Virus record (IMG/VR): IMGVR_UViG_3300032223_002507
Location: 1-22,903 of that record
Strand: one strand, 5' to 3'
DNA length: 22,903 nucleotides
DNA from: a virus
A model generated the notes under the pieces. That model had not been told where the DNA came from, searched no databases, and saw only the letters and a program-made list of their open reading frames with translations. A program made the position numbers and the translations under genes. Shown here piece after piece: positions 5,237 to 17,944 of the stretch (position 1 is the first letter of the stretch; the number at the start of each line of letters is the position of its first letter).

Positions 5237-6121
5237 TTAAATGCCTTTAAGAGCACTAAGATATCCGTTTACTGGAGTTGATACTTCAGTGGAAGATTCT
5301 TTGATAACTTCAGCAGCAGGAACTTTAGCATCTTTGGAGATTGCTTTGCTCTTAGCCTCTTCGACTAATTTTGCTGAAGATTCATTTTCTTCTCTCTCGA
5401 ACATCTCAACGACAAACTTAAAGTTCTCCTCAATATAGTCAGGAGACTTGTCGCTCAACAGTTTACTTACATACTCTTTCTTAGCAGATGGCATTCCTTT
5501 TGACATCTGTTCTAATACGAGTGAAGACTTTACAGACTTAAGTTTTTCATTTAATTCAATGTTTTCCTTATAGGATTCATTGAGTTGATTCTTAAGTTCT
5601 TCAATTTTATCTTTTCCTAAAGTGATTACTTTCTTAACATCTTCATTTAAAGAAGATGGATCAAAAGAAATAATTTCCTTGATTTTTTCAATTTGATTAC
5701 GAGCAGCTGTATTTGCTACTGCTTCATCTAATTGAGTTTGAGGAATTGTTTTTTCGATATAGAGATCAATGAAGTTACTGATACTTTCAACAAGACTTGA
5801 AGAAAATGATTCAGCCTTCTCATTGATTGCATTGCGATAGAAAGAAACAATGTTTTCTAACTTAGCAGCATGATTTTCATTGATTGCACCAACAACCTTT
5901 TCTAATTTTGCGGAGTGATCAGTATCAATAGCTTCTAAAAGATTTTCTAACTTAGCAGCATGATCTTCGTCTTGCTTGTTAAGAGCACTTTCTACTTCGA
6001 GAGTAAGACGAGAATCTACTTTCTCGTTTACTGCACTTTCAAAAGCTTCAGCAATTGCTGTTGCTGTTTCTTCGTTGATTACAGCTGTGTCAATGTTTTT
6101 GATGATTGATGTGATATCCAT
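5237..6121 (-). CDS. gp22: prohead scaffold/core protein, gp22-like
   Basis: A 294-residue, Glu/Lys/Ala-rich, almost wholly helical protein placed between the prohead protease and capsid genes, as gp22 is in T4. It would form the internal core on which the capsid assembles and is then cut up by gp21. Six sites fit the gp21 rule (Leu/Ile)-X-Glu before Ala/Ser: IAE|A at 25, LLE|A at 63, LVE|S at 112, LDE|A at 133, LNE|S at 182 and IKE|S at 275. Residues 52-100 hold three near-identical 15-residue coiled-coil repeats built on DHAAKLENLLEAIDT. The segment LLSDKSPDYIEENFKFVVEMF near 221-241 is typical of the conserved C-terminal part. A GATAAATA box lies 14 bases before the ATG. Confidence 0.85.
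   Translation of the reverse strand: MDITSIIKNIDTAVINEETATAIAEAFESAVNEKVDSRLTLEVESALNKQDEDHAAKLENLLEAIDTDHSAKLEKVVGAINENHAAKLENIVSFYRNAINEKAESFSSSLVESISNFIDLYIEKTIPQTQLDEAVANTAARNQIEKIKEIISFDPSSLNEDVKKVITLGKDKIEELKNQLNESYKENIELNEKLKSVKSSLVLEQMSKGMPSAKKEYVSKLLSDKSPDYIEENFKFVVEMFEREENESSAKLVEEAKSKAISKDAKVPAAEVIKESSTEVSTPVNGYLSALKGI
5853..5987 (-). repeat. three 45-bp tandem repeats inside gp22
   Basis: Units begin at 5853, 5898 and 5943, each with TTTTCTAA(C/T)TT on the plus strand. The outer two are closer to each other than to the middle one. They encode DHAAKLENLLEAIDT, DHSAKLEKVVGAINE and NHAAKLENIVSFYRN. The coding period is exactly 15 residues. Confidence 0.8.
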
Positions 6122-6135
6122 AAAATTCTTATTAT

Positions 6136-6143
6136 TATTTATC
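6136..6143 (-). promoter_or_regulatory. late-promoter-like box GATAAATA before gp22
   Basis: GATAAATA on the minus strand, one mismatch to TATAAATA, 14 bases before the gp22 ATG. The spacing is almost the same as at the portal and gp21 genes (15). Confidence 0.5.
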
Positions 6144-6144
6144 C

Positions 6145-6384
6145 TTACTTCTTACCCTTTTTCTTATCTTTTTTTAAAGCCTTGAAATCAGCACCTGTGA
6201 TTTTGTCATATGGCTTTGCTGCCTTAGCAATTTTCTTTTGTGCGGGGGAAAGTTTTTCTGAGGTCTTTTTAACACGAGCTTTTACTTTTTCAGTAACTAT
6301 TGTATCAAGTGTTTTACTAGCAGAAGAGAAGTTTTTTTGGGAAACTTGAGCTATTAAATTTGAGATTAAGTTGCGAATATTCAT
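6145..6384 (-). CDS. small Lys-rich protein, possible prohead core component
   Basis: A 79-residue basic protein beginning MNIRNLISNLIAQVSQKNF and ending KITGADFKALKKDKKKGKK. The first half looks like an amphipathic helix, and the second half is a Lys/Ala-rich stretch with a poly-Lys tail. It sits between gp21 and gp22, where small core proteins can occur in T4-like phages, although T4 gp67, the classic small core protein, is acidic. No gp21 cleavage motif is visible. A role in the prohead core or in binding DNA inside the head is inferred from position and charge. The start is an ATG with GATAAATA nine bases upstream. Confidence 0.7.
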   Translation of the reverse strand: MNIRNLISNLIAQVSQKNFSSASKTLDTIVTEKVKARVKKTSEKLSPAQKKIAKAAKPYDKITGADFKALKKDKKKGKK

Positions 6385-6393
6385 TGTATATAT

Positions 6394-6401
6394 TATTTAT
6401 C
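6394..6401 (-). promoter_or_regulatory. late-promoter-like box GATAAATA before the 79-residue gene
   Basis: Minus-strand GATAAATA, nine bases before the ATG at 6384. It is identical to the box before gp22. If used at the T4 distance it would leave a leader of only a few bases. Confidence 0.4.
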
Positions 6402-6416
6402 TTTGGTTTGTGCGAA

Positions 6417-7091
6417 TTAAAGAGTTTTTAATGCATTAATGAAATTAATTACTTGTTCCTTTAAATATGCATCTGTATTTTTCTTAGGTAAGTTTGAAAT
6501 GTTCTTTTCAAATCTTTCGTAAACAGGAGCAAATTGTCCAGAATCATCTAATATCCATTGTTTGGATTCTAAGATACCATTTACAAATGCAGTAGGAACT
6601 GAAGGATCAGCAACAACGTCAACAGCTACTAATTTAAAATCAGCAACACGATTAACACCATTACTATCTTCTTCTAAACGACCTAATGCACGAGAAGATA
6701 CACCAAGTTTTACACCATCCATGATTAAGGAACGAACAATTTGTCCCATTGGTGTTGAAAGAACTTTGGATTTACCTTCAAAGATATTACCATTTTGTTT
6801 TAAATCTGTTACAACGTGACATACTCTTTCCAAATTAATATCTGGACTTGATGGGTGATTCAATTCACCAGTAGCACGTTTTGTATCAATCATTTCTGTT
6901 TGATAACGACTAACTTCTTTTATCATCTCTTCGAGTGGATAAACTCTTTTATTCTTATTAGCTTCATTAGCCATTAAGAATGGACCTTGAATATGAAGAA
7001 TAGAAGGAGTATTTCTATTTTTTTCTTCAATTAAATATTTTACTTCGTATGTTGGTTCCTCAACTAAGAGTTTGTAGACGTTATTGGACAT
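6417..7091 (-). CDS. gp21: prohead maturation protease, gp21-like (peptidase S80 type)
   Basis: A 224-residue serine protease of the T4 gp21 family, which degrades the scaffold and trims the capsid protein during maturation. The N-terminal half has the conserved block IQGPFLMANEANKNKRVYPLEEM. The catalytic His lies in TGELNHP (H79) and the Ser in LGVSSRALG (S132/S133), about 54 residues later, close to the spacing I recall for T4 gp21. An Asp in VAVDVVADPS (D158 or D162) could complete the site. ILE|S at 175-176 near the C-terminus matches the enzyme's own cleavage rule and may release a C-terminal propeptide. It is the third recognisable gene of the head cassette, behind an exact TATAAATA. 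Confidence 0.9.
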   Translation of the reverse strand: MSNNVYKLLVEEPTYEVKYLIEEKNRNTPSILHIQGPFLMANEANKNKRVYPLEEMIKEVSRYQTEMIDTKRATGELNHPSSPDINLERVCHVVTDLKQNGNIFEGKSKVLSTPMGQIVRSLIMDGVKLGVSSRALGRLEEDSNGVNRVADFKLVAVDVVADPSVPTAFVNGILESKQWILDDSGQFAPVYERFEKNISNLPKKNTDAYLKEQVINFINALKTL

Positions 7092-7106
7092 AAATGTTCG
7101 TATATA

Positions 7107-7114
7107 TATTTATA
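7107..7114 (-). promoter_or_regulatory. T4-type late promoter TATAAATA before gp21
   Basis: Exact TATAAATA on the minus strand, 15 bases before the gp21 ATG, the same distance as at the portal gene. The leader after it shows no Shine-Dalgarno. Confidence 0.65.
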
Positions 7115-7141
7115 TTTAATTATAGCTAATTTATTAAAAAT

Positions 7142-7351
7142 TTAACCCTTTCTTAACTTTTTAAGGATAGCACCTGCTACACGCTCACCAGCAGCCTTTG
7201 ATCCATAACGCTTTCCAGCTGATTTAGCAATCTTAGCAAAGTTTTTTCCGGGTTTGCCAATGTCTTTACCTTCACGAGCTTTTTTTGCGGAATAGGATTT
7301 CTTTTTTGTTTCCTCAATAATATTATTTGCTAAGATGTCGAATTTATTCAT
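7142..7351 (-). CDS. small basic phage protein with KNFxKIAKSAGKRYGSKAAGERVAGAIL motif
   Basis: A 69-residue protein, MNKFDILANNIIEETKKK, then a Lys/Gly/Ala-rich C-terminal half whose key segments are GKDIGKPGKNF, KRYGSKAAGERV and AGAILKKL. I recall similar small proteins of unknown function in many phage genomes. An in-frame TTG at 7369 would add six residues, but the ATG at 7351 is more natural. It lies between gp4 and gp21. The strong positive charge suggests DNA or core binding. No catalytic motif or membrane segment is visible. Confidence 0.75.
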   Translation of the reverse strand: MNKFDILANNIIEETKKKSYSAKKAREGKDIGKPGKNFAKIAKSAGKRYGSKAAGERVAGAILKKLRKG

Positions 7352-7379
7352 GGTTATATTTACACTCAAATTCTTATTA

Positions 7380-7844
7380 TCAATTATTTATATGCTTTTC
7401 AGTCAAAATGATAAATTTATATCCTTTTGTATTTGCCCATGCTTCTGCTGCTTTCCATTTTGTTTGATTAATAATATACTGAGTTTGTTCATACATTATA
7501 GTACTGGATTTTTTACGTTCTGATGGAATAGGTTTTATTGTTTGTTTAAATGGTTTAACTTCTATTATAAATTTCTTATTTGTCCCATCTTTATCTTTTA
7601 ATAGAACAACAAAATCTACAAAGTATCTATGTAATTTTCCATCAAGTGGGGATTGATAAGGAATTACAATTGATTCAGAACCCCATGTTATAATATTGGG
7701 ATTATTATCAAACCAACGCATTGCAGTTAGTTCTAACTTGGAACGATATATTATAGGAAAAGTACCCTTGTACTTTTGTTTATTTTTTGGCGTAAAAATA
7801 CCTTGAGTATAATTGTTATTTTTTTTACCAAGTTTGGTTTTCAT
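7380..7844 (-). CDS. gp4: head-completion nuclease, gp4-like (PD-(D/E)XK fold)
   Basis: A 154-residue protein with the gp4 (gp50) head-completion pattern: YRSKLELTAMRWFDNNPNI (from 33), WGSESIVIPYQSPLDGKLHRYFVDF (54-78) and FIIEVKPF (92-99). Residues E38, D77 and the E95-x-K97 pair form a PD-(D/E)XK-like nuclease site. In T4 this protein is needed to finish the filled head before the neck and tail join, and it probably trims packaged DNA. The gene starts inside the gp13 stop (TAATG, sharing one base), so the two are translationally coupled. That fits a shared role at the head vertex. Confidence 0.85.
   Translation of the reverse strand: MKTKLGKKNNNYTQGIFTPKNKQKYKGTFPIIYRSKLELTAMRWFDNNPNIITWGSESIVIPYQSPLDGKLHRYFVDFVVLLKDKDGTNKKFIIEVKPFKQTIKPIPSERKKSSTIMYEQTQYIINQTKWKAAEAWANTKGYKFIILTEKHINN
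7385..7392 (-). promoter_or_regulatory. T4-type late promoter TATAAATA before the small basic gene
   Basis: Exact TATAAATA on the minus strand inside the last codons of gp4, 33 bases before the ATG at 7351. It could drive the small basic gene and gp21 onward. Confidence 0.5.
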
Positions 7845-8731
7845 TAACCAACAAAAAATCTTATTGGATCTCTATCAATTTGATCTGTGAAAAGTTCTTT
7901 TTCTAACTCATCTTTTTCCTTTGTGCCTTGATTCATTAAATCAGAATAATTTACGGTTTGACCACCAAAAAGATTTGTACCTGTAAATTTTCCTCTTATA
8001 TGAGCAACTGCAATTTTGGTTTGTGCTAATGTATATCTATAAACCCAAAGTTGGCTTATAAGATATTTTAAAGGTTTTTGTACTCTACAACCTACTAATC
8101 CAAAATATGTACTACCACCACCTGATTGTGCAGGTTCTGGAATAAGCTTGAGCATTTGTGTATCAGGATCAAATCTAAGATATGGAGTAAGAGCTAAAAC
8201 CTTATCACGAGTATCAAGCCATGTTTTAAGTGCTTGCCATGTAACTAAATCATAACCAACATTACCAAGTAATTGACCAAAATATGCTTGCTGTGCAATT
8301 GTATTTTCAATTGTGAATAATGTGTTTACTCCAGTATTATTACCTTCAGCATATGAATATACATCGACTACTTTTCTATAATCGCCTAAATCAAAATCAT
8401 AACCTGCACTTAATGAACTGGTAGTACTATCAGGATTTTCTTGATTATACATTTCAGGAGAAATGTTTAGTAATCTTCCAATAGGAAGACCTACTCTTGG
8501 AATATATAAATCAGATCTAAAAATTAAAAACTCTTCTGTTGTTCCTGCAAACTTTGTGAAATATTCAATTGAAATATCAATTAATTCATAGATTTGTTCG
8601 CTGCTTATTTCAATTTGAATTAATGGTTCTCCTAATGCTCTTCTTACTCTTTGAGCCAAAGCATCATAACTTTTGATTTTTGAACCAAAAGTAGTGCTTC
8701 CATGAAAACTATTGGGAAGGACATTAGACAT
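7844..8731 (-). CDS. gp13: neck/head-completion protein, gp13-like
   Basis: A 295-residue protein. Residues 22-55 (LAQRVRRALGEPLIQIEISSEQIYELIDISIEYF) match the N-terminal gp13 pattern of an R-x-LG-x-P helix followed by a predicted helix with IDxxIEYF. The C-terminal part (YTLAQTKIAVAHIRGKF, then TNLFGGQTVNYSDLMNQG, and the ending RDPIRFFVG) matches the family's LPGG/FxG ending. Gp13 forms part of the neck that closes the portal and receives the tail. It is coupled to gp4 through a one-base overlap. A TGTAAATA box lies seven bases upstream. Confidence 0.75.
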   Translation of the reverse strand: MSNVLPNSFHGSTTFGSKIKSYDALAQRVRRALGEPLIQIEISSEQIYELIDISIEYFTKFAGTTEEFLIFRSDLYIPRVGLPIGRLLNISPEMYNQENPDSTTSSLSAGYDFDLGDYRKVVDVYSYAEGNNTGVNTLFTIENTIAQQAYFGQLLGNVGYDLVTWQALKTWLDTRDKVLALTPYLRFDPDTQMLKLIPEPAQSGGGSTYFGLVGCRVQKPLKYLISQLWVYRYTLAQTKIAVAHIRGKFTGTNLFGGQTVNYSDLMNQGTKEKDELEKELFTDQIDRDPIRFFVG

Positions 8732-8738
8732 CTTTATA

Positions 8739-8746
8739 TATTTACA
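8739..8746 (-). promoter_or_regulatory. weak late-promoter-like box TGTAAATA before gp13
   Basis: Minus-strand TGTAAATA, one mismatch to TATAAATA, seven bases before the gp13 ATG. The same octamer occurs at 7357-7364, five bases before the small basic protein's ATG. Confidence 0.25.
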
Positions 8747-8783
8747 ATTAAAGCCTATTAAAAGATTCTAATTTAAATTTTAA

Positions 8784-9062
8784 TTAAGAAGGCTCTGGAA
8801 CAACTACAATATCAGATGCAGTATCAAGAGAATTTATATCAGGTGTAATTGTAACAATTTGATTTAATTTTAAATCTTCAAAATTGATAACTTCATTATT
8901 ATTTGTAATAACTGTTCTTTGATTTATTTTGTATTTACAACGATCAATACCTTGAATAATAATATTACCATTAATAGGTTCAACTCCATTATTAAATACT
9001 GATAATAATTTTATTCTTCCTGTAAGAGCATCGTGTTTATTGTTGAAATTAGGTGCTGACAT
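8784..9062 (-). CDS. small beta-rich protein, DUF5666-like, copy 1
   Basis: A 92-residue protein with no signal peptide. Its pattern is LTGRIKLL, GNIIIQGIDRCKYKI, RTVITNNNEVINFEDLKLNQIVTITP, then DTASDIVVVP. This follows the small beta-barrel layout of DUF5666-like domains: a G-x-I strand, a V/I-x-G turn, a T-x-I strand, a DLxxxxxV strand and an A-x-I-V strand. It is clearly paralogous to the genes at 10059 and 10404. It is divergent from a glycosyltransferase, with 58 bases between the starts. A virion-surface or adaptor role is plausible, but nothing catalytic is visible. Confidence 0.75.
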   Translation of the reverse strand: MSAPNFNNKHDALTGRIKLLSVFNNGVEPINGNIIIQGIDRCKYKINQRTVITNNNEVINFEDLKLNQIVTITPDINSLDTASDIVVVPEPS

Positions 9063-9076
9063 ACTATGTGATTACT

Positions 9077-9115
9077 TATTTACTACATAGACATTTTCAA
9101 TAATTTCGATAAATA
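9077..9115. promoter_or_regulatory. divergent late-promoter-like boxes, unit 1
   Basis: On the minus strand AGTAAATA (9084-9077) lies 14 bases before the ATG at 9062. On the plus strand GATAAATA (9108-9115) lies five bases before the glycosyltransferase ATG. Both are imperfect late boxes, weaker than in unit 2. Confidence 0.35.
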
Positions 9116-9120
9116 AAATT

Positions 9121-10062
9121 ATGAATATATGGGCTGTTAGTTGTTTATTTGCTTTTACTCCTAGTCACTTTAGATCTAGAAATTATAAGATATTCAGAGA
9201 AAATTTAAAAAATCATAATGTTAAACTTTTGACGGTAGAGTTTAATCCAGAAGGTATATATGAACTTACAAAAGAAGATGCTGATATATTAATTCAACTG
9301 TCAGATGGAGATATAATGTGGCAAAAGGAAAGATTATTGAATATAGGAATAGATCATTTACCAACAGATACAGATATCGTTCTTATACTTGATACCGATA
9401 TTATATTTTCTCATGAAGATATGATTGATAGAATAGTAAAAAAAATTAATGATTATAAAGTAGTTCAATGCTATTCACATACAATGCAATTACATCCTCT
9501 ATTTTTAATGAATATAGATAAAATTAATTTTTTTAAAATAGATAATACAAAAAATTATTTTTTCCATGATGTTAATAGATCATCATTTTTAAAAGAATTT
9601 TTAGATCCTATGGGAGCACATAAAGCAGGTGAAATAGGATTAGCATGGGCATATAGATATGATGTAATTAAAAAAATAAAACTCTTTGATCATAATATTA
9701 TTGGTGCAGGAGATAATGCAACAATGTGTGCTTTCATAAGAATTTTTAAACCTTTTAACATAATAGGAACAGGAAATTCTTGGTTTAAATATTGTGATTT
9801 AGCCAGACAATATGTTGATTTAAAAGATGTAAGTTATCTTGAAGATACAATTATATATTCTTTATATCATGGAGAAGTAAAAGATAAAAATTATGTACAC
9901 AGACATGAAATAATTGAAAAACATAATTTTGATTCAACAAAACAATTAATAATAAAAGAAGGTCTTCCTTTTAAATTTGATGAAACTGTTGGTGATGAAT
10001 TAAAACAAGAAATAAAAGATTATTTTATAAACAGAAAAGAAGATGATCCATTACCTTTTTAA
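9121..10062 (+). CDS. GT-A type glycosyltransferase, copy 1
   Basis: A 313-residue protein with a GT-A layout: an N-terminal strand IWAVSCLFAF, a helix with YKIFRENLKNH, then WQKERLLNIGIDHLP and the metal/nucleotide-sugar DxD motif ILDTDIIF near 90. A second block GLAWAYRYDVIKKIKLF...GAGDNAT near 178-205 is typical of the acceptor/catalytic side. There is no signal peptide or membrane segment, so it acts in the cytoplasm. The target is unknown; fibre or other virion proteins are the nearest candidates. It is very AT-rich. It resembles the copy at 10716 throughout, including the ending YFINRKE. It is probably not a T4-type hmC-DNA glucosyltransferase, because nothing here suggests modified cytosine. 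Confidence 0.75.
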   Translation: MNIWAVSCLFAFTPSHFRSRNYKIFRENLKNHNVKLLTVEFNPEGIYELTKEDADILIQLSDGDIMWQKERLLNIGIDHLPTDTDIVLILDTDIIFSHEDMIDRIVKKINDYKVVQCYSHTMQLHPLFLMNIDKINFFKIDNTKNYFFHDVNRSSFLKEFLDPMGAHKAGEIGLAWAYRYDVIKKIKLFDHNIIGAGDNATMCAFIRIFKPFNIIGTGNSWFKYCDLARQYVDLKDVSYLEDTIIYSLYHGEVKDKNYVHRHEIIEKHNFDSTKQLIIKEGLPFKFDETVGDELKQEIKDYFINRKEDDPLPF

Positions 10063-10382
10063 AAACATCCTTTTTTTCTAAAACTATCAAATTCTGTACC
10101 TGTAAAACTACGCATAGCGGATTCCATATGATCAGGAATTATTACAATAGAAGATGCAGTATCTAAACTAGATAATGTAGGAGTAATTGCAACAATAGTA
10201 TTAAGTTTTAAATCAAAAAAATTAATTATATTATTATTAATATCAGTTATAAAAGTATTATCGTCAACACTAAACTTTATATAATCTATTCCTTGTATGA
10301 TTATGTTATTATTTAAAAATAATACTGAAATACGACCTGTAGAAGTTGAACTTAGGCTATTATAATTAGCATAACTCGACAT
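10059..10382 (-). CDS. small beta-rich protein, DUF5666-like, copy 2
   Basis: A 107-residue paralogue of the genes at 8784 and 10404. The shared core reads STGRISVLFLNNNIIIQGIDYIKFSV, TFITDINNNIINFFDLKLN, IVAITP and LDTASSIVIIP. A C-terminal tail of about 20 residues (after IIPDH) is absent from the other two copies and ends in KKGCF. It follows the copy at 10404 by 21 bases on the same strand and probably shares its promoter. Its stop overlaps the end of glycosyltransferase copy 1 by four bases. Its function is unknown. Confidence 0.75.
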   Translation of the reverse strand: MSSYANYNSLSSTSTGRISVLFLNNNIIIQGIDYIKFSVDDNTFITDINNNIINFFDLKLNTIVAITPTLSSLDTASSIVIIPDHMESAMRSFTGTEFDSFRKKGCF

Positions 10383-10403
10383 ATTAATTTAATATACCAT
10401 ATA

Positions 10404-10664
10404 TTATATGGCACTAAGAACAGTTACAATAGATGCAGTATCAAATTTTGTATTATTTGGTGTAATTGATATAAAATCATTTATACTTAAACTATCAAAA
10501 GAAATTTCATTTCCTTGAATGTCTAAAATTGATGTATTTGGTGAAATTTTATATTTTATTCTTTCAGGAGTTTCAATTACAATTCTTTGGTTTAATACAA
10601 GAGCAAAAATAGTACCTGATAAAGTATTTGAAGTACTGTTAAATGGCGGAAATATATTAGGCAT
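10404..10664 (-). CDS. small beta-rich protein, DUF5666-like, copy 3
   Basis: An 86-residue, more diverged member of the same family: LSGTIFALVLNQRIVIETPERIKYKI, TSILDIQGNEISFDSLSINDFISITP and FDTASIVTVL. The QGID motif of the other copies is replaced by ETPE, and DLKL by SLSI. It is the first gene of a two-gene minus-strand unit and is divergent from glycosyltransferase copy 2. An exact TATAAATA lies six bases before its ATG. Confidence 0.7.
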   Translation of the reverse strand: MPNIFPPFNSTSNTLSGTIFALVLNQRIVIETPERIKYKISPNTSILDIQGNEISFDSLSINDFISITPNNTKFDTASIVTVLSAI

Positions 10665-10670
10665 ATATAA

Positions 10671-10678
10671 TATTTATA
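10671..10678 (-). promoter_or_regulatory. T4-type late promoter TATAAATA, leftward
   Basis: Exact TATAAATA on the minus strand, six bases before the ATG at 10664. Transcription starting at the T4 distance would give an essentially leaderless mRNA. Confidence 0.55.
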
Positions 10679-10701
10679 CATTTTACTTTTAAATACAACC
10701 T

Positions 10702-10709
10702 TATAAATA
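10702..10709 (+). promoter_or_regulatory. T4-type late promoter TATAAATA, rightward
   Basis: Exact TATAAATA on the plus strand, six bases before the glycosyltransferase ATG at 10716. With the mirror-image box at 10671 it forms a symmetrical divergent pair within a 51-base gap. Confidence 0.55.
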
Positions 10710-10715
10710 CGATAT

Positions 10716-11654
10716 ATGAAAGTATGGGCAGTATGTTGTTATTTCAACTTTACATCAAGTCAGTTTAGATTGCAAAATTATAAGATATTCAGGGAAAATT
10801 TAAAAAAACATGATGTAAAACTTTTGACTTTAGAATTTGATATAAATGGAATTTATGAATTAAAAGAAGAAGATGCTGATGTATTAATTCAGCTAACTGA
10901 TGGTGATTTAATGTGGCAAAAAGAAAGATTATTAAACATTGGAATAGATCATTTGCCTACTGATACAGATATAGTAATGATATTGGATACGGATGTTATT
11001 TTTGGTAATGAAGATGTTATTGATAGACTTAAAAAGAGCATGGAAAAATATAAAGTTGTCCAATGTTTTTCAAAAACCATGCAATTAAATCCATATCTTT
11101 TTAAATTAAAAAATTTTGATATTTCAAAAATTGATATTACAAAAAAATATAATTTTCATGAAATTTATGATAATAATTCTTTAGTAAAAAATACCATAAA
11201 TCCTGAAAAATCATATGCAAGTTCAACGGGTCTTGCGTGGGCATATCGTTATGAAACAATTAAAAAAATAAAAATGTTTGAAGGTAAAATTGTAGGATCA
11301 GGTGATGAAGCAACAAGTTGGGCATTATTAAGATTGTTTAAAAAAAGTTTTTTAATAGGTACTGGAAATTCTTGGCTTGAATATGCAGATATGATTAGAA
11401 ATTATGTTGATTTAAGTGAAATAAGATATTTAGAAGATACTGTAATATTTTCTTTATATCATGGAGAAAAAGAAGATAGAGGATATCTTAATAGATATGA
11501 TATTTTTAATCAATATGATTTTGATTCCTCTAAAGATTTAATAGCAGAAGAAGGCAAGCCATTTAAGTTTAAAGAAAATGTTCCTTTATCTTTAAGGGAA
11601 TACATTAAACAATATTTTATTAATAGAAAAGAAAACGAGTCTTTAAATTTTTAA
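10716..11654 (+). CDS. GT-A type glycosyltransferase, copy 2
   Basis: A 312-residue paralogue of the protein at 9121. Shared landmarks are YKIFRENLKKH, WQKERLLNIGIDHLP, the DxD motif in ILDTDVIF near 90, GLAWAYRYETIKKIKMF, GSGDEAT and the ending YFINRKE. The middle part (about residues 125-175) differs most between the copies and may set substrate or acceptor choice. The enzyme is cytoplasmic by lack of any export or membrane signal. The gene converges on the Gly-rich adhesin gene with a four-base overlap of stops. The acceptor is not known. Confidence 0.75.
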   Translation: MKVWAVCCYFNFTSSQFRLQNYKIFRENLKKHDVKLLTLEFDINGIYELKEEDADVLIQLTDGDLMWQKERLLNIGIDHLPTDTDIVMILDTDVIFGNEDVIDRLKKSMEKYKVVQCFSKTMQLNPYLFKLKNFDISKIDITKKYNFHEIYDNNSLVKNTINPEKSYASSTGLAWAYRYETIKKIKMFEGKIVGSGDEATSWALLRLFKKSFLIGTGNSWLEYADMIRNYVDLSEIRYLEDTVIFSLYHGEKEDRGYLNRYDIFNQYDFDSSKDLIAEEGKPFKFKENVPLSLREYIKQYFINRKENESLNF

Positions 11655-13198
11655 AGAACTGTTAAAGCAGTTGTATGTTGAAATGGATAATTTCTTGCTG
11701 CTCCAGAATTATAAAGATATTGTATTTCTTCAATTGATAAAACCCTTTGCCAAATTCCAATTTCATCAATTAAGCCTTGAAATGGATACTTTACATTTTC
11801 TGCTCCTACATAAAAATAAGTACTACCCCATAATCCATTAACATTATTAGCAGCCACTTGTGTACCATTAATATACAAATATATGTAATTAGATTTTGCT
11901 ATACAGACATAATGATACCAAACATCATTTGCAGGATATGCTGGATTACTTGTATCTATATAAATATAAGAATTATTAGGAACCCAATAAAGACCGGGTT
12001 GACTTGATGGACCAAAAAACAACTGAGGAGTACTATTACCATCAAATATAATGCAATAATCATCTACTGTGCCTGTTCTTTTTGCCCATACTGATATTGT
12101 ATAATCTTTACTAAAATCTATAGTAGAAGATGTTTGTAAATAATCAGATACACCGTTTCCCGGTATTCCCATACTAAGACAATTACCAATTATACCGCCC
12201 GTATTATAACTAAGATTAAATCCACCACTGAGATGTGCTGTTAAATTATTAGAACCTTTAGAATCATATCTAGTTCCTGATGTTTCATCTAATTTCCAAT
12301 AAGCTAATGGATTTGTTAATCCTGTATTTTCAAAAACATGAATGTAGTTACCACCTATTGTATATTGTAAATCGCCACCTGTAGCTTTTGGTGTTGTTCC
12401 GGGGTAAGAAATAACAACAATACCATCTGCTCCATTACCAGATGGTCTAGTTTTAGCACCACCGCCACCACCACCTGTATTTGGTTGAGCATTTCCATAA
12501 TCATTATCTGGATTAAACCCGACTGCACCACCAAAACCACCACCATAAGATGCATTACCACCACCATCATAAGGAGCACGTCCATAGGTATCTACTAAAT
12601 CTCCTGCACCACCACCACCACCAGCATAGTCTGTACTAAATCCTGTAATATCAGAAGTTATACCAATACCACCATCACCTCCCTGACCAGATCCATCATT
12701 ACCATCACTTCCATTCCCCCCTGCACCACCACCACCACCTGAAGCAAGAGTACCAGAATTTATTTGTTGTGTTCCACCTCCATGTTGACCTTGACCAACT
12801 ACACCTGAGCCACCTGCAATGCCGTGATCATCAATATCACGAGTCGATGCTCCAGAGCCAGAACCTCCATTTGATGGTACATATCCCCAACTAGATCCTG
12901 CACCACCGCCATAAGCAGTTAAATTATTAAAAATAGTATTACCACCTTGTCCACCATATGTAGATGTACTGATTGAACCAGCACCACCACTACCAACTAT
13001 AATATTATATATCCCTGATGTTAAAGTTGTTGTTCCTTGGAGTACACCACCTGCACCGCCACCAGAATGTGCTCCACCGCCACCACCACCAATTATAAGG
13101 TATGATACAGTAAGATTAGAAGGAATATATAACTTTTGTGTTGGCAGTTTTTGTTGCCCATATAAACCTATCATTGATGCTTTGTTAAAATTGAACAT
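11651..13198 (-). CDS. glycine-rich adhesin with C-terminal LamG-like lectin domain
   Basis: A 515-residue surface protein. Residues about 30-270 are dominated by Gly runs (GGGGGGAHSGGGAGG, SGGGGGAGGNG, AGGGGGAGD, TGGGGGGAKT), a low-complexity pattern known from phage adhesins and fibre tips. The block ends in ADGIVVISYPG and GNYIHVFENTG, the usual end of such Gly-rich modules. From about 295 a concanavalin/LamG-type domain follows: LAYWKLDETSGTRYDSKGSN, YTISVWAKR, WYHYVCIAKSNYIYLYINGTQV and GLIDEIGIWQRVLSIEEIQYLYN. The likely role is carbohydrate or cell-surface binding at a fibre tip. It starts two bases after the repeat fibre gene stops, so the two are probably coexpressed. Confidence 0.85.
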   Translation of the reverse strand: MFNFNKASMIGLYGQQKLPTQKLYIPSNLTVSYLIIGGGGGGAHSGGGAGGVLQGTTTLTSGIYNIIVGSGGAGSISTSTYGGQGGNTIFNNLTAYGGGAGSSWGYVPSNGGSGSGASTRDIDDHGIAGGSGVVGQGQHGGGTQQINSGTLASGGGGGAGGNGSDGNDGSGQGGDGGIGITSDITGFSTDYAGGGGGAGDLVDTYGRAPYDGGGNASYGGGFGGAVGFNPDNDYGNAQPNTGGGGGGAKTRPSGNGADGIVVISYPGTTPKATGGDLQYTIGGNYIHVFENTGLTNPLAYWKLDETSGTRYDSKGSNNLTAHLSGGFNLSYNTGGIIGNCLSMGIPGNGVSDYLQTSSTIDFSKDYTISVWAKRTGTVDDYCIIFDGNSTPQLFFGPSSQPGLYWVPNNSYIYIDTSNPAYPANDVWYHYVCIAKSNYIYLYINGTQVAANNVNGLWGSTYFYVGAENVKYPFQGLIDEIGIWQRVLSIEEIQYLYNSGAARNYPFQHTTALTVL

Positions 13199-13200
13199 AA

Positions 13201-15660
13201 CTAGAATCTACCTACAGCGTAGAGACTACCATTATGTACATAAGCAAAAGCACCACTTCCTTTTCCAGATAAGCTATTGCCTATGGATACTAAAGGTAAA
13301 GCCGAAGAAAGATAAAGATAATTAGTTCCAGTATTCATTAAGGCAACACTAAATCCTTCTATAAGTGTTGATGGGAAAAGAGCAGAAAGAGTTGTAGATG
13401 TTGTATCAAGATGTACTGCTTTATTATTGTCATTTACAGTAATTGTATATGTAGATGATTGATCATTTACAGTTAAAACAGCAGAAGTAGTATTAACTGT
13501 AGTATAAACAGAATTCCATTTATTTGAATTTCCATTATTAGCATATACAATAGATGTAGAACTAATATTACCTACTACTGTTAATTTTTCATTTGGAATT
13601 GATGTAGTATCTCCTGATGCTGTAGCAAGTATATTACCAACAGGTGTTAATAATAATTTATTATTCGGATAAATAGTTACATCTTGAAGAGATCCAATTC
13701 CAAATGTTCCATTAGAATTACCTATAGTGCTGTTAACATCTAAGTCAAAATAATTTGGTGTTTGTTTTACGCCAATTTTTCCAGTAGTAATTAGATTATT
13801 AGCATTAAATGTTGTAGCAGTTGTTGTATTAATTAATGTATAGACACTATTCCAATAAATTGATGAAAGACTTAAAGTATTAACAGTAGAAACAGCTTGG
13901 TATCCCAATTTAAAATTTGCAGAATTAGTAGTAAAAACACTAAAAACATTGTTTACTGTAGAAACAGCTTGATATCCCAAAGTCCAGTTAGCACTAAAAG
14001 AGGATACTGTTGTGGATGTTGATTGCCATATACCACTGACAGATGGGGTTATATAGGCACTACCTCCTCCACCACTTCCACCCCAAGTGCCAGAGGTATT
14101 ATATACAGTGGAATAAACATTGTTCCAATAAATTGATGAGAGACTTAAATTATTAACAGTAGATACTGCTTGGTATCCCAAATTCCAATTAGAAGAATTT
14201 GCAATAAAATTACTATAAACATTATTCCAGTAAATAGAAGATAAACTTAAGTTGTTAACTGTGGAAATAGCTTGATAACCTAAGTTCCAATTAGAAGAAC
14301 TGGAAATTTTATTATCAGCAATATTTCCAGCAAGCATTGTGTTAGTAACTGTTCCTACATCAGTTGTATAAACACCATTTGTTACAGTACTTGCATTACC
14401 TGTAACATTTCCTATTAAATTTGCACTTAAGGAATCAACTACCATATTTCTATCTGTCCAATCAATATTAGCAGCAGATAATGGTTCAGTTGTTAAACCA
14501 GAAAATAATGTCCAAACACCCGGTTTTCCCTGTCCAGCTTTTCTTACTAATCCTGTGTGTTGATATCCAAGTGGAGATTGTGTAAAATGAGATACAAAAC
14601 CTGTATCTAAAACATTTCCTGTATTATTGTTATTAAGATAAATTAAATTATCACCAACAACAAGATTTTGAGCATTAATATATGTTGCTGATCCAGATAT
14701 AGTAAGATTTCCAATAATAGAAACATCACCCGGAAATACTGCACTAGTAGGAAAACTTAATGTATATGAGTTATTACCGGGAGAAGTTGATTTTGTTGCA
14801 ACTATTTGATTTGCTGTTCCATTTATATTAAAAACAGCATTATTATAAGCATTATTCCAATAAACGGAAGATACATTTAAATTATTGACTGTTGATACTG
14901 ATTGATATCCTAAATTCCAATTTGCAGAATTTGAAGATAAAATTGTCAAAGAAGCAGAATTAGCATTAAAAGTTGTATATGTACTATTCCAATAAACGGA
15001 AGATAAACTTAAGTTGTTAACAGTAGATACTGCTTGATATCCTAAATTCCAATTAGCACTAAAAGATGATACTGTGGTAGATGTTGATTGCCATACACCA
15101 CTGACAGCTTGAGTTATATAAGCACTACCTCCACCTCCACCTAAACCCCATGTACCAGAGGTATTATATACAGTACTATAAACACTATTCCAGTAAACAG
15201 AAGATAAACTTAAATTGTTAACAGTGGAAACAGCTTGGTAACCTAAATTCCATTTTGCAGAATTTGTGATAAAATTACTATAGATATTATTCCAATAAAC
15301 AGAAGATAAACTTAAATTATTGACTGTTGATATTGATTGATAACCTAAATTAAAATTAGCAGACAGTGTATTAACAGTTACATATACACTATTCCAATTA
15401 GCAGAATTTGCTACAATAAAAGTATTTAAAATATTAAATGCTGATAAATCAGTTTTTAATAATAATGCACTTAATGTTGCAAGTGAAATGGGTTTGTTTA
15501 AATCACTTGTATTATTAATTTGATCTAATCCAAGATCAGCTGGTGTTAATACAACAAGCCCAATCTTACCGTTAACACTTATAATATTGCTACCACCAGT
15601 GTTTATTACAACACTATCTTGTGGAATAGGATTAGTATTGATAATAATTGTATCACTCAT
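13201..15660 (-). CDS. long repeat-containing tail fibre protein
   Basis: An 819-residue fibre. The N-terminus has the common fibre motif VNGKIGLVVLTPADLGLDQINNTSDLNKPIS. The shaft contains eight repeats on LGYQ(A/S)(V/I)STVN, most continuing to NLSLSS(V/I)YWN. Two longer copies carry a GGGGSAYIT linker and VSG(V/I)WQSTSTTVSSFSANW. A central segment with YINAQNLVVGDNLIYLNNN resembles fibre intramolecular domains. The C-terminal SSTYTITVNDNNKAVHLD to NGSLYAVGRF looks like a beta-rich tip. A GTG at 15687 would add nine residues, but the ATG at 15660 overlaps the upstream stop (ATGA), a typical coupling. No peptidase-type chaperone domain is visible. Confidence 0.85.
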   Translation of the reverse strand: MSDTIIINTNPIPQDSVVINTGGSNIISVNGKIGLVVLTPADLGLDQINNTSDLNKPISLATLSALLLKTDLSAFNILNTFIVANSANWNSVYVTVNTLSANFNLGYQSISTVNNLSLSSVYWNNIYSNFITNSAKWNLGYQAVSTVNNLSLSSVYWNSVYSTVYNTSGTWGLGGGGGSAYITQAVSGVWQSTSTTVSSFSANWNLGYQAVSTVNNLSLSSVYWNSTYTTFNANSASLTILSSNSANWNLGYQSVSTVNNLNVSSVYWNNAYNNAVFNINGTANQIVATKSTSPGNNSYTLSFPTSAVFPGDVSIIGNLTISGSATYINAQNLVVGDNLIYLNNNNTGNVLDTGFVSHFTQSPLGYQHTGLVRKAGQGKPGVWTLFSGLTTEPLSAANIDWTDRNMVVDSLSANLIGNVTGNASTVTNGVYTTDVGTVTNTMLAGNIADNKISSSSNWNLGYQAISTVNNLSLSSIYWNNVYSNFIANSSNWNLGYQAVSTVNNLSLSSIYWNNVYSTVYNTSGTWGGSGGGGSAYITPSVSGIWQSTSTTVSSFSANWTLGYQAVSTVNNVFSVFTTNSANFKLGYQAVSTVNTLSLSSIYWNSVYTLINTTTATTFNANNLITTGKIGVKQTPNYFDLDVNSTIGNSNGTFGIGSLQDVTIYPNNKLLLTPVGNILATASGDTTSIPNEKLTVVGNISSTSIVYANNGNSNKWNSVYTTVNTTSAVLTVNDQSSTYTITVNDNNKAVHLDTTSTTLSALFPSTLIEGFSVALMNTGTNYLYLSSALPLVSIGNSLSGKGSGAFAYVHNGSLYAVGRF
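13870..15360 (-). repeat. eight fibre repeats of the LGYQ-STVN type
   Basis: Eight copies are readable in the DNA near 13885, 13960, 14160, 14260, 14890, 15020, 15220 and 15325, each around GCTTG(G/A)TA(T/A)CC(C/T)AA or a close variant. Their third-codon bases have diverged while the protein is conserved. A larger ~70-residue block including the GGGGS linker occurs twice (about 13945-14125 and 15020-15200). Confidence 0.8.
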
Positions 15661-16001
15661 CTTGTTACTTTTGGAAGAATAGTCCACTTACCACCCATAT
15701 AAGTTTTTGTTTCTCCACTAGAAAGAATTAATTTCAAATCATAAATGTAATTTCCAACTGGTATATCAACAATTTGTGGTGGTATGGTTACAATTCCACT
15801 TAATGCTGGTGTATTGATCATTATTCCTCCATTTATATTATCCAAATCTAATACAACAGGACTATCTATGGACTGCCTTACTTGCATATGGATATATGCT
15901 CCTGATAAACTTAAAGGAATACTATTTCTAAGAAATGAAATAGAGGGTATTCCATCCCAAGTATTACCAGAAATATGGGAATTTATATCAAATGTAATCA
16001 T
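15657..16001 (-). CDS. BppU-like fibre/baseplate adaptor protein
   Basis: A 114-residue beta-rich protein. Landmarks are GNTWDGIPSISFLRN, LSLSGAYIHMQVRQS, PVVLDLDN, LSGIVTIPP, GNYIYDLKLILSSGETKTYMGGKW and a final VTR. This follows the N-terminal domain of phage upper-baseplate (BppU) and related receptor-binding adaptors, with the hallmark order GAxxxMQVR ... YxYDL ... GxWxIxxxVTR. Its stop overlaps the fibre ATG by four bases (ATGA), so it probably partners that fibre, joining it to the particle. It follows the portal gene by 30 bases. Confidence 0.7.
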   Translation of the reverse strand: MITFDINSHISGNTWDGIPSISFLRNSIPLSLSGAYIHMQVRQSIDSPVVLDLDNINGGIMINTPALSGIVTIPPQIVDIPVGNYIYDLKLILSSGETKTYMGGKWTILPKVTR

Positions 16002-16031: not shown

Positions 16032-17921
16032 TTATGCTGGAGTTTCTGGAGTAGGTGCATTACCACCAGCAGCTGCTGGTGTTTCTCCTCCAGCTGAAGT
16101 TGCTTCACCTTCTGGTGTAGCTCCTGCTTCTGGAGTTTCTGGAGTAGGTGCTCCACCTCCTCCACCGCCAAATTCTGGTATTGCTGATGGAGATGTTCCA
16201 CCTGCACCTCCTCCACCACTGCTACTAGCTTCTACACCAGTTGCAGCATTTTCAGCAGCTTCAATGTGTTCTCTCCAATTTGGACCATTTGTTTCAATTT
16301 GTGCAAGTTCCCATTTAAGAGCAGCATCTTTACGCTTCCATTCCATGTTTTCACCAATTTTAGCATCGGAATAATCAAGATAATGACGCTGTGCAAATGT
16401 ATTGGAAATACCTTCATTTTGTGACATGTCACCAAAGTTCTTAAACTTAAGTTCAAGAAGCTGTTGCTGACGAATTGCAAAGAAATTTGAAGGTTCTGTG
16501 AATCTAAAATTAAAATATGACTCATGAAGCTTGAGTTCTTTCCACCATCCTCTTAATTTTAAATGAGTTATGAAAGAATTTTTCAATCCTGTTGCCAATT
16601 GATTTTGAACACGAACAATAAATTTAGCAAATCTAAGTTCTTCTCTTAAAAGTTCTGCACCATCCTTAAATGGTTCATTTGGATTTAAACGGGTTACAGG
16701 AACTTTAAGACTCTTATAGAGTTTATTAACAAAATATAACAAATCATCAAGATTTCCAAGATTTTGTCCACCATTCATCATTTCCACATCAGACCCTACT
16801 TCACCATTTCTTCTTGCAAACCAATAAGAATCCAACATTGTTTGTGGGTTGTATTGATTACCAGCACCGGGTGCTTGTGTATTGGAATTATAAGTTTGTT
16901 TACTCCAATATTGTTGCATGAGTTGCTTTAAATATGCTTCTGCCTTTGCAGGTGGCATATTACCAACATCAATCTTAAATTTAAGACGCTCAGGTGCTCT
17001 CACCATTCTATAGATAATGATAGAATCTTCCAATAGTGAAAGTTGTTTATATGCTCTTCTGCAATTTTCGATGAATGGAATACGAATTGATTGATCTTCA
17101 TTCCAGAGTCCAGAATTCATGTAGGTAACCTGATTCCCTTGTAATGTAACAATCTGTTGTTTCAAAGCATTTACAGGACTTTGATTGCTTTGTATTTGTG
17201 AAAGTGCAGCAGCAGGATCATTTAATACACTGATTGGTTTTTGGAATACGAAATTTTCTATTACACTATTTTGAACATTGTCATAGATAGGATTAATAAG
17301 CTCACCGGGAATAGTTAAAACACCAATGATTCCTCTATCTTTTTTTTCATCATGAATTACGTTTTCAAAAAATAATTCACCTTCTGTTAAAAGGGTTCTA
17401 CTATAACCCCATCCCTTATGTTCTAAATCATAAATGCTTATAAATTTATTAAATTCTTTTAACAACTCATTTTTTACTTCTTGGGAAATATTTGTAAAAC
17501 TAGAAAATCCAAGATGAATTATTTTTCCGTTTTCATCTTTAACTATCATTTCATCGCAGATTTCATCTAAACAATCAGAAACTTCTGCATAAGAAGCCAT
17601 ACGACGATATTCTGCCAATCTACGGATCTTATCAGAATCTATATTTGCATAGATATAACGATGATAAGCATGATCAGATACAAATGAACCGGGATTATAG
17701 TGTTCACCAAAATCATTACGCATGAATGGTCCAGTGAGAACTGACTGTTGCATCAGTTTTAATTCATTTCTCTTTGCAAGTCTATCGAATAATTCGTATT
17801 TAGGATTTCCTACATCAGGAGTAACAGCACCAGAAATATATGGAAGTCTCTGAAGAATCTGAGATACAAAGTTTCTACTTGAATCAGGTGTTCTGTTAGA
17901 AGTGGATAGGATATCAGCCAT
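16032..17921 (-). CDS. gp20: portal protein, gp20-like, with Gly/Pro/Ala-rich tail
   Basis: A 629-residue portal-vertex protein of the T4 gp20 family, which forms the dodecameric ring through which DNA is packaged. Typical segments are IRRLAEYRRMASYAEVSDCLDEICDEMI (about 98-125), GVLTIPGELINPIYDN, the clip/stem region with RAPERLKFKIDVGNMPPAKAEAYLKQLM, and NKLYKSLKVPVTRLNPNEPF. The last 64 residues (566-629) are an unusual low-complexity extension of Gly runs followed by PTPETPE-type repeats, which I do not associate with T4 gp20. An exact TATAAATA lies 15 bases before the ATG. In T4 gp20 directly precedes the core/protease/capsid genes. Here 7.3 kb of fibre and glycosyltransferase genes lie between it and gp13, and 9 kb between it and the protease gene. 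Confidence 0.9.
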   Translation of the reverse strand: MADILSTSNRTPDSSRNFVSQILQRLPYISGAVTPDVGNPKYELFDRLAKRNELKLMQQSVLTGPFMRNDFGEHYNPGSFVSDHAYHRYIYANIDSDKIRRLAEYRRMASYAEVSDCLDEICDEMIVKDENGKIIHLGFSSFTNISQEVKNELLKEFNKFISIYDLEHKGWGYSRTLLTEGELFFENVIHDEKKDRGIIGVLTIPGELINPIYDNVQNSVIENFVFQKPISVLNDPAAALSQIQSNQSPVNALKQQIVTLQGNQVTYMNSGLWNEDQSIRIPFIENCRRAYKQLSLLEDSIIIYRMVRAPERLKFKIDVGNMPPAKAEAYLKQLMQQYWSKQTYNSNTQAPGAGNQYNPQTMLDSYWFARRNGEVGSDVEMMNGGQNLGNLDDLLYFVNKLYKSLKVPVTRLNPNEPFKDGAELLREELRFAKFIVRVQNQLATGLKNSFITHLKLRGWWKELKLHESYFNFRFTEPSNFFAIRQQQLLELKFKNFGDMSQNEGISNTFAQRHYLDYSDAKIGENMEWKRKDAALKWELAQIETNGPNWREHIEAAENAATGVEASSSGGGGAGGTSPSAIPEFGGGGGGAPTPETPEAGATPEGEATSAGGETPAAAGGNAPTPETPA

Positions 17922-17936
17922 ATTAGTATTATAATC

Positions 17937-17944
17937 TATTTATA
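17937..17944 (-). promoter_or_regulatory. T4-type late promoter TATAAATA before the portal gene
   Basis: Exact TATAAATA on the minus strand, 15 bases before the portal ATG, in a 52-base gap. The following leader (GATTATAATACTAAT) has no Shine-Dalgarno. Confidence 0.65.

Follow-up and report, generated by a model that had tools for sequence, protein, structure and literature searches.

Pelagimyophages and cyanomyophages carry a host recognition cluster (HRC), bounded by VrlC and gp14, in which tail fibres, several glycosyltransferases, and radical SAM cassettes have been reported (PMC7029224). The glycosyltransferases (GTs) of this cluster are mostly of the GT8 type and have been interpreted as modifying the host O-chain; the word sulfotransferase does not appear in that paper (PMC7029224). 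A second precedent comes from mycobacteriophages, whose capsid and tail proteins carry glycans that are likely produced by phage-carried GTs (Freeman et al. 2023, as cited in PMC12619734). Our search of the literature on sulfotransferases in T4-like phages and on phage-encoded capsid glycosyltransferases found nothing closer. For the glycosyl- and sulfotransferases encoded in such islands of T4-like phages, the virion and the host surface are both candidate targets.

We analyzed a 22.9-kb IMG/VR virus record, the whole of which we refer to as the window. It contains a T4-like structural cluster that is encoded chiefly on the minus strand and includes genes for a gp23-like capsid protein, scaffold, protease, head-closure protein, neck protein, fibres, and portal. 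The best isolate matches of the gp23-like capsid protein are from cyanomyophages, at about 35%. Five genes lie between a Gly-rich, laminin-G-like adhesin gene and the gp13-like neck gene. Two of these code for GTs (GT1 and GT2) that are oriented against the structural operon, and three code for small orphan proteins (S1 to S3, Table 1). A sequence-only reading of this DNA had described two paralogous plus-strand GTs with a DxD motif, placed among the structural genes, each divergent from a small protein. The domains of the adhesin and the phrog_211 match of the neck protein agree with this placement. The divergent arrangement was found for S1 with GT1 and for S3 with GT2; S2 instead follows S3 in the same direction and runs toward GT1, with which it shares a convergent 4-bp overlap (10059-10062). 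GT2 and the adhesin gene are also convergent, with a 4-bp overlap (11651-11654).

Table 1. Features of the island and its flanking structural genes, in window coordinates.
Feature	Position	Strand	Evidence or remark
gp13-like neck / head-tail adaptor	7844..8731	-	phrog_211 3.5e-18; conserved edge of variable interval
S1, orphan small protein, 92 aa, immediately ahead of neck gene	8784..9062	-	ORF, family comparison, dN/dS
Late-promoter-like ATAAATA	9109..9115	+	5 nt ahead of GT1 start
GT1, GT-A type glycosyltransferase, 313 aa	9121..10062	+	ORF, paralogy, invariant motifs, GT family 2 profile match
S2, orphan small protein, 107 aa	10059..10382	-	ORF, family comparison, dN/dS
S3, orphan small protein, 86 aa	10404..10664	-	ORF, family comparison, dN/dS
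Late-promoter-like TATAAATA	10671..10678	-	6 nt ahead of S3 start
Late-promoter-like TATAAATA	10702..10709	+	6 nt ahead of GT2 start
GT2, 312 aa, sister paralogue of GT1	10716..11654	+	ORF, paralogy, tree
Adhesin, Gly-rich and laminin-G-like, 515 aa	11651..13198	-	PF21722 (Gly_rich_2) 1.9e-19, PF13385 (Laminin_G_3) 1.8e-22
Fibre protein, Ser/Thr/Asn-rich repeats, 828 aa, 26% S+T, 14% N	13201..15687	-	ORF and composition
Portal, gp20-like	16032..17921	-	Other conserved edge of variable interval

We compared this arrangement to that of related phages. The island resembles the HRC in being hypervariable, in lying within a T4-like structural region beside the neck gene, and in combining fibres with glycosyltransferases. 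Through the neck protein we recovered 65 relatives (58-81%), across which a variable interval with fibres beside the neck gene, as in the HRC, was seen. The interval between portal and neck is nearly empty in four of them (L099, L046, L104, and L106), and many contain fibres alone. Other relatives carry fibres together with sulfotransferases (c14), antisense genes of a family we call c16, and a GT4-type enzyme or a PF11397 enzyme. c16 was antisense in all six cases counted and c14 in four of eight; the annotation of distant c16 relatives in Pelagibacter phages is putative glycosyl transferase. No member of the GT1/GT2 family or the S family was found at the 65 neck-gene loci. Judged by this gene content, the stretch from portal to neck is a site of variable cargo, and the island is one of its cargo states. 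The island looks like a cargo state of the already published kind of hypervariable host-recognition interval (PMC7029224) and is better viewed as such. It differs from the HRC in several respects. The interval in the window runs from portal through adhesin to neck, belongs to a divergent clade, and is small, its cargo apart from the adhesin amounting to about 3 kb. The bounds seen within the 22.9-kb fragment are the portal and the phrog_211 neck protein. This cargo includes two in-paralogous GTs from a family without a Pfam model, as well as the orphan S proteins.

A stepwise profile for the GT family retrieved 26 viral loci and two cellular loci. In an alignment of 22 members, N21, E40, WQKE (67-70), D91xD93, G173/W176, and H250-G251 are invariant; the DxD motif is embedded in ILDTDIIF in GT1 and in ILDTDVIF in GT2. 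The 22-member profile aligned with GT family 2 (PF00535, GT-A fold) domains over about 150 residues and placed DxD on DxD (hhalign E 2e-5, score 28.7). None of 100 column shuffles did as well (best score 9.0), and reversed and unrelated controls were far lower. Because the profile resembles GT family 2, the controls score low, and the DxD motifs align, the assignment of GT1 and GT2 as GT-A transferases is well supported at the level of sequence profiles. One cellular relative, L014, carries the family domain fused to a nucleotide-diphospho-sugar transferase domain and lies in a polysaccharide-export cluster, behind an ABC-2 exporter and beside enzymes of glycosyltransferase families 1 and 2. 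The earlier identification of the two proteins as GTs thus stands on the profile match, the DxD motif, and this relative.

The family is distinct from GT family 2 proper. It has conserved motifs of its own (NY..F, WQKE, GxAWA, and HG...NR.Y..R), and none of the 22 members passes the PF00535 cut-off (GT1 reached 13.3 bits against 23.3). Neither GT1 nor GT2 reached a Pfam or NCBIfam cut-off, and comparing the 22 members to Pfam gave no meaningful family match. By these searches, GT1 and GT2 belong to a family without any Pfam model. We found no homologue in isolate phages and no meaningful match in a sequence search of the PDB, and scanning with GT2 as the only query brought no further members. 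An AF2 model of GT1 from a 4-sequence alignment was poor (mean pLDDT 48). Its N-terminal part, which was better predicted, shows the strand/helix order E-H-E-E-H-E, a Rossmann-like beta-alpha-beta half containing the DxD motif. Foldseek with this poor model gave a best E of 0.017 and a weak lean to GtrB/IspD-like folds, that is, GT-A or nucleotidyltransferase folds.

GT1 and GT2 share 59% identity over their full length and retain copies detectable in the DNA (300 nt at 79% and 230 nt at 73% identity). They form a clade with support of 98/95 that is nested with the GTs of L008 and L022 (100/100). Since the two proteins are sisters within this group, the duplication is local to this lineage, as had been proposed. 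Tree and sequence identity mark them as recently duplicated in-paralogues. dN/dS was 0.29/0.70 for GT1-GT2 and 0.48/1.23 for S1-S2, and these substitution patterns indicate that both families are under selection on the protein sequence.

The three small proteins form one family, as previously recognized, with S2 55% and S3 38% identical to S1. When the S2-S3 region was shuffled 2000 times, an ORF of 86 aa or longer arose only 7 times; by this and by dN/dS, S1 to S3 are real genes. The earlier label of DUF5666-like found no support. The S proteins have no Pfam match to DUF5666 (PF18914) at E<=10, and hhalign against 19 DUF5666 domains returned a probability of 0.5% and an E of 0.06; a faint collinear resemblance, slightly above shuffled controls, is a lead only. 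An AF2 model was all-beta and unreliable. Three scans of viral contigs with single sequences and profiles found no S homologue, nor did tblastn against isolate phages. A profile search of 23-26 GT loci, the 65 neck-gene loci, and whole longer records was also negative; the profile is weak, being built from three sequences, and the records closest to the window could have escaped the search, so this absence is not proof. Other small proteins, c20 (70-81 aa) and c35 (78-83 aa), are encoded on the late strand of relatives between the fibres and the neck gene, which is the place of S1 in the window. Going by this position, the most likely role of S1 to S3 is that of small proteins associated with the fibres, either structural or for assembly, that are read with the late operon.

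We examined promoter motifs for indications of timing. Nine of the 13 copies of ATAAATA in the window lie at most 45 nt upstream of one of the 25 gene starts, compared to 0.28 expected by position, and the genes with an upstream copy include gp21, scaffold, portal, GT1, GT2, and S3. Together with TATAAATA, this motif is strongly enriched upstream of structural genes (for example at 7107-7114 -, 7385-7392 -, 17937-17944 -, and 2385-2391 +). Among relatives, ATAAATA occurs upstream of gp21 (17/34), the p6145 gene (13/24), and gp13 (12/37), and is missing upstream of the clamp loader (0/24), dUTPase (0/9), c14 (0/10), and c16 (0/9). We regard it as a late-type motif, the putative T4-type late promoter of a divergent clade. 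The gap between motif and start is 5-6 nt at GT1, GT2, and S3 versus 14-15 nt at most structural genes of the window; at gp13 of relatives, it is 5-7 nt. A simple-consensus sigma70 scan of the island gave no more hits than shuffles, and no intrinsic terminators were found. The late character ascribed to the island by the sequence-only reading is consistent with the motifs at GT1, GT2, and S3. The genes for c14, c16, and the GTs of L008 and L022 tend to have a sigma70-like TTGA-N16-TAnAAT and never ATAAATA. Given this difference, the GTs of the window look late and those of L008 and L022 look early, which allows timing and target to be compared side by side.

GT relatives lie directly behind an adhesin in L003-L006 and L007, and L012 has the order portal-fibre-adhesin-GT. 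Four IMG/VR records around L008 share the order adhesin-GT-sulfotransferases-radical SAM-GT25, and the longest continues to the portal. Large fibre-like proteins flank the GT relative of L022. In L023, the relative is inside a head-tail connector module, and in L026, it is between the head protease and major capsid genes. Members of this family, for which Pfam offers no model, are found directly beside adhesins and also in capsid modules of other phages. Several members adjoin nucleotide-sugar genes (e.g. GDP-mannose dehydratase) and sulfotransferase genes, not virion genes. What recurs in relatives is the neighbourhood of GT and adhesin rather than the pairing of GT and S.

The late motif and the repeated occurrence of the family in virion modules lead us to favor, with confidence just short of even, the view that the cargo GT-A pair is expressed late and glycosylates the fibre or adhesin encoded next to it. 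GT1 and GT2 would be transcribed late from the strand opposite the structural operon and would take a sugar from a nucleotide-sugar donor, with the metal held by the DTD motif. Candidate acceptors are Ser/Thr-rich parts of the adjoining fibre or adhesin, which would be modified before assembly. After duplication, the copies would be free to come to differ in the donor they use, the site they modify, or the order of sugars. We infer GT activity, donor, acceptor, timing, and purpose alike. As in mycobacteriophage virion glycosylation, the GTs are phage-carried; here the phage is T4-like and the GTs lie beside an adhesin. The sigma70-like motifs at the GT genes of L008 and L022 run counter to this reading, since they would be consistent with enzymes that act early, on the host. 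Action on the host is the core of a strong rival, in which the infected cell has its surface glycan, O-chain or capsule, modified by the GTs, changing the receptor against superinfection or against adsorption of progeny to debris. The position beside the adhesin would then reflect linkage of receptor-binding and receptor-altering genes. Published work reads the GTs of the pelagimyophage clusters in this way (PMC7029224), and the reading fits the polysaccharide-export setting of L014, the nucleotide-sugar enzymes and sulfotransferases that adjoin the GT in several relatives, and the early-type promoters, which also precede c14 and c16. However, given the late-type motif at GT1 and GT2, the host surface would be altered late in infection, two family members lie in capsid or connector modules, and the island contains no evident membrane flippase or bactoprenol-linked enzyme. 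We consider modification of the host surface a real possibility but a somewhat doubtful one.

The sequence-only reading had instead proposed that GT and small protein form a repeated, self-contained system. The S proteins would be acceptors, decoration proteins, or adaptors dedicated to the GTs and duplicated with them as a unit. Both families are duplicated within one island, two S-GT pairs are divergent, the late motifs of S3 and GT2 face outward within one shared intergenic gap, and S1 and S2 are the closest S pair, as would fit duplication of a unit followed by loss. The two families were nevertheless not found together outside the window, an outcome that this reading had itself named as counting against it. 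The 26 GT loci, the 65 relatives, viral contigs, and isolate phages yielded no S homologue, and GT homologues are clearly present without S at other loci. With S homologues found nowhere else searched, the proposed system is unsupported beyond the window, and a dedicated pair seems improbable. Very improbable, in our view, is the more specific model of an enzyme-acceptor cassette in which each GT glycosylates S proteins that decorate the virion, enzyme and acceptor having been duplicated together so as to vary the sugars that coat the host-binding apparatus. DNA glucosylation is known in T4-like phages, and GT1 and GT2 might glycosylate phage DNA. This is the least probable reading: the 22.9-kb fragment contains no recognized hydroxymethylase or base-hypermodification gene, the family adjoins adhesin, capsid, or surface-sugar genes and not replication genes, and the GTs match no described family, DNA glucosyltransferases included.

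Other gene combinations were observed in the relatives. The genes for the c14 sulfotransferase and the glycosyltransferase-like c16 recur as an antisense pair (L062 6067-7811, L085 3269-5013, and L094 2754-4516) that adjoins fibres or portal, often with early-type promoters. The longer record of L085 also contains a shortened GT-family gene at its contig end. In L153, a gene that resembles adenylosuccinate synthetase by eye (8491-9486 -) lies near a truncated GT-family member at the contig end, which could point to a link with base modification. In the T4-like L008, sulfotransferases, a radical SAM/SPASM protein, a GT25 enzyme, and a c16-family protein follow the adhesin and GT (8936-14252). 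In L026, the GT-family gene and the one behind it, whose product combines GT family 2 and GT25 domains, make up a candidate capsid-glycosylation module (5777-8231).
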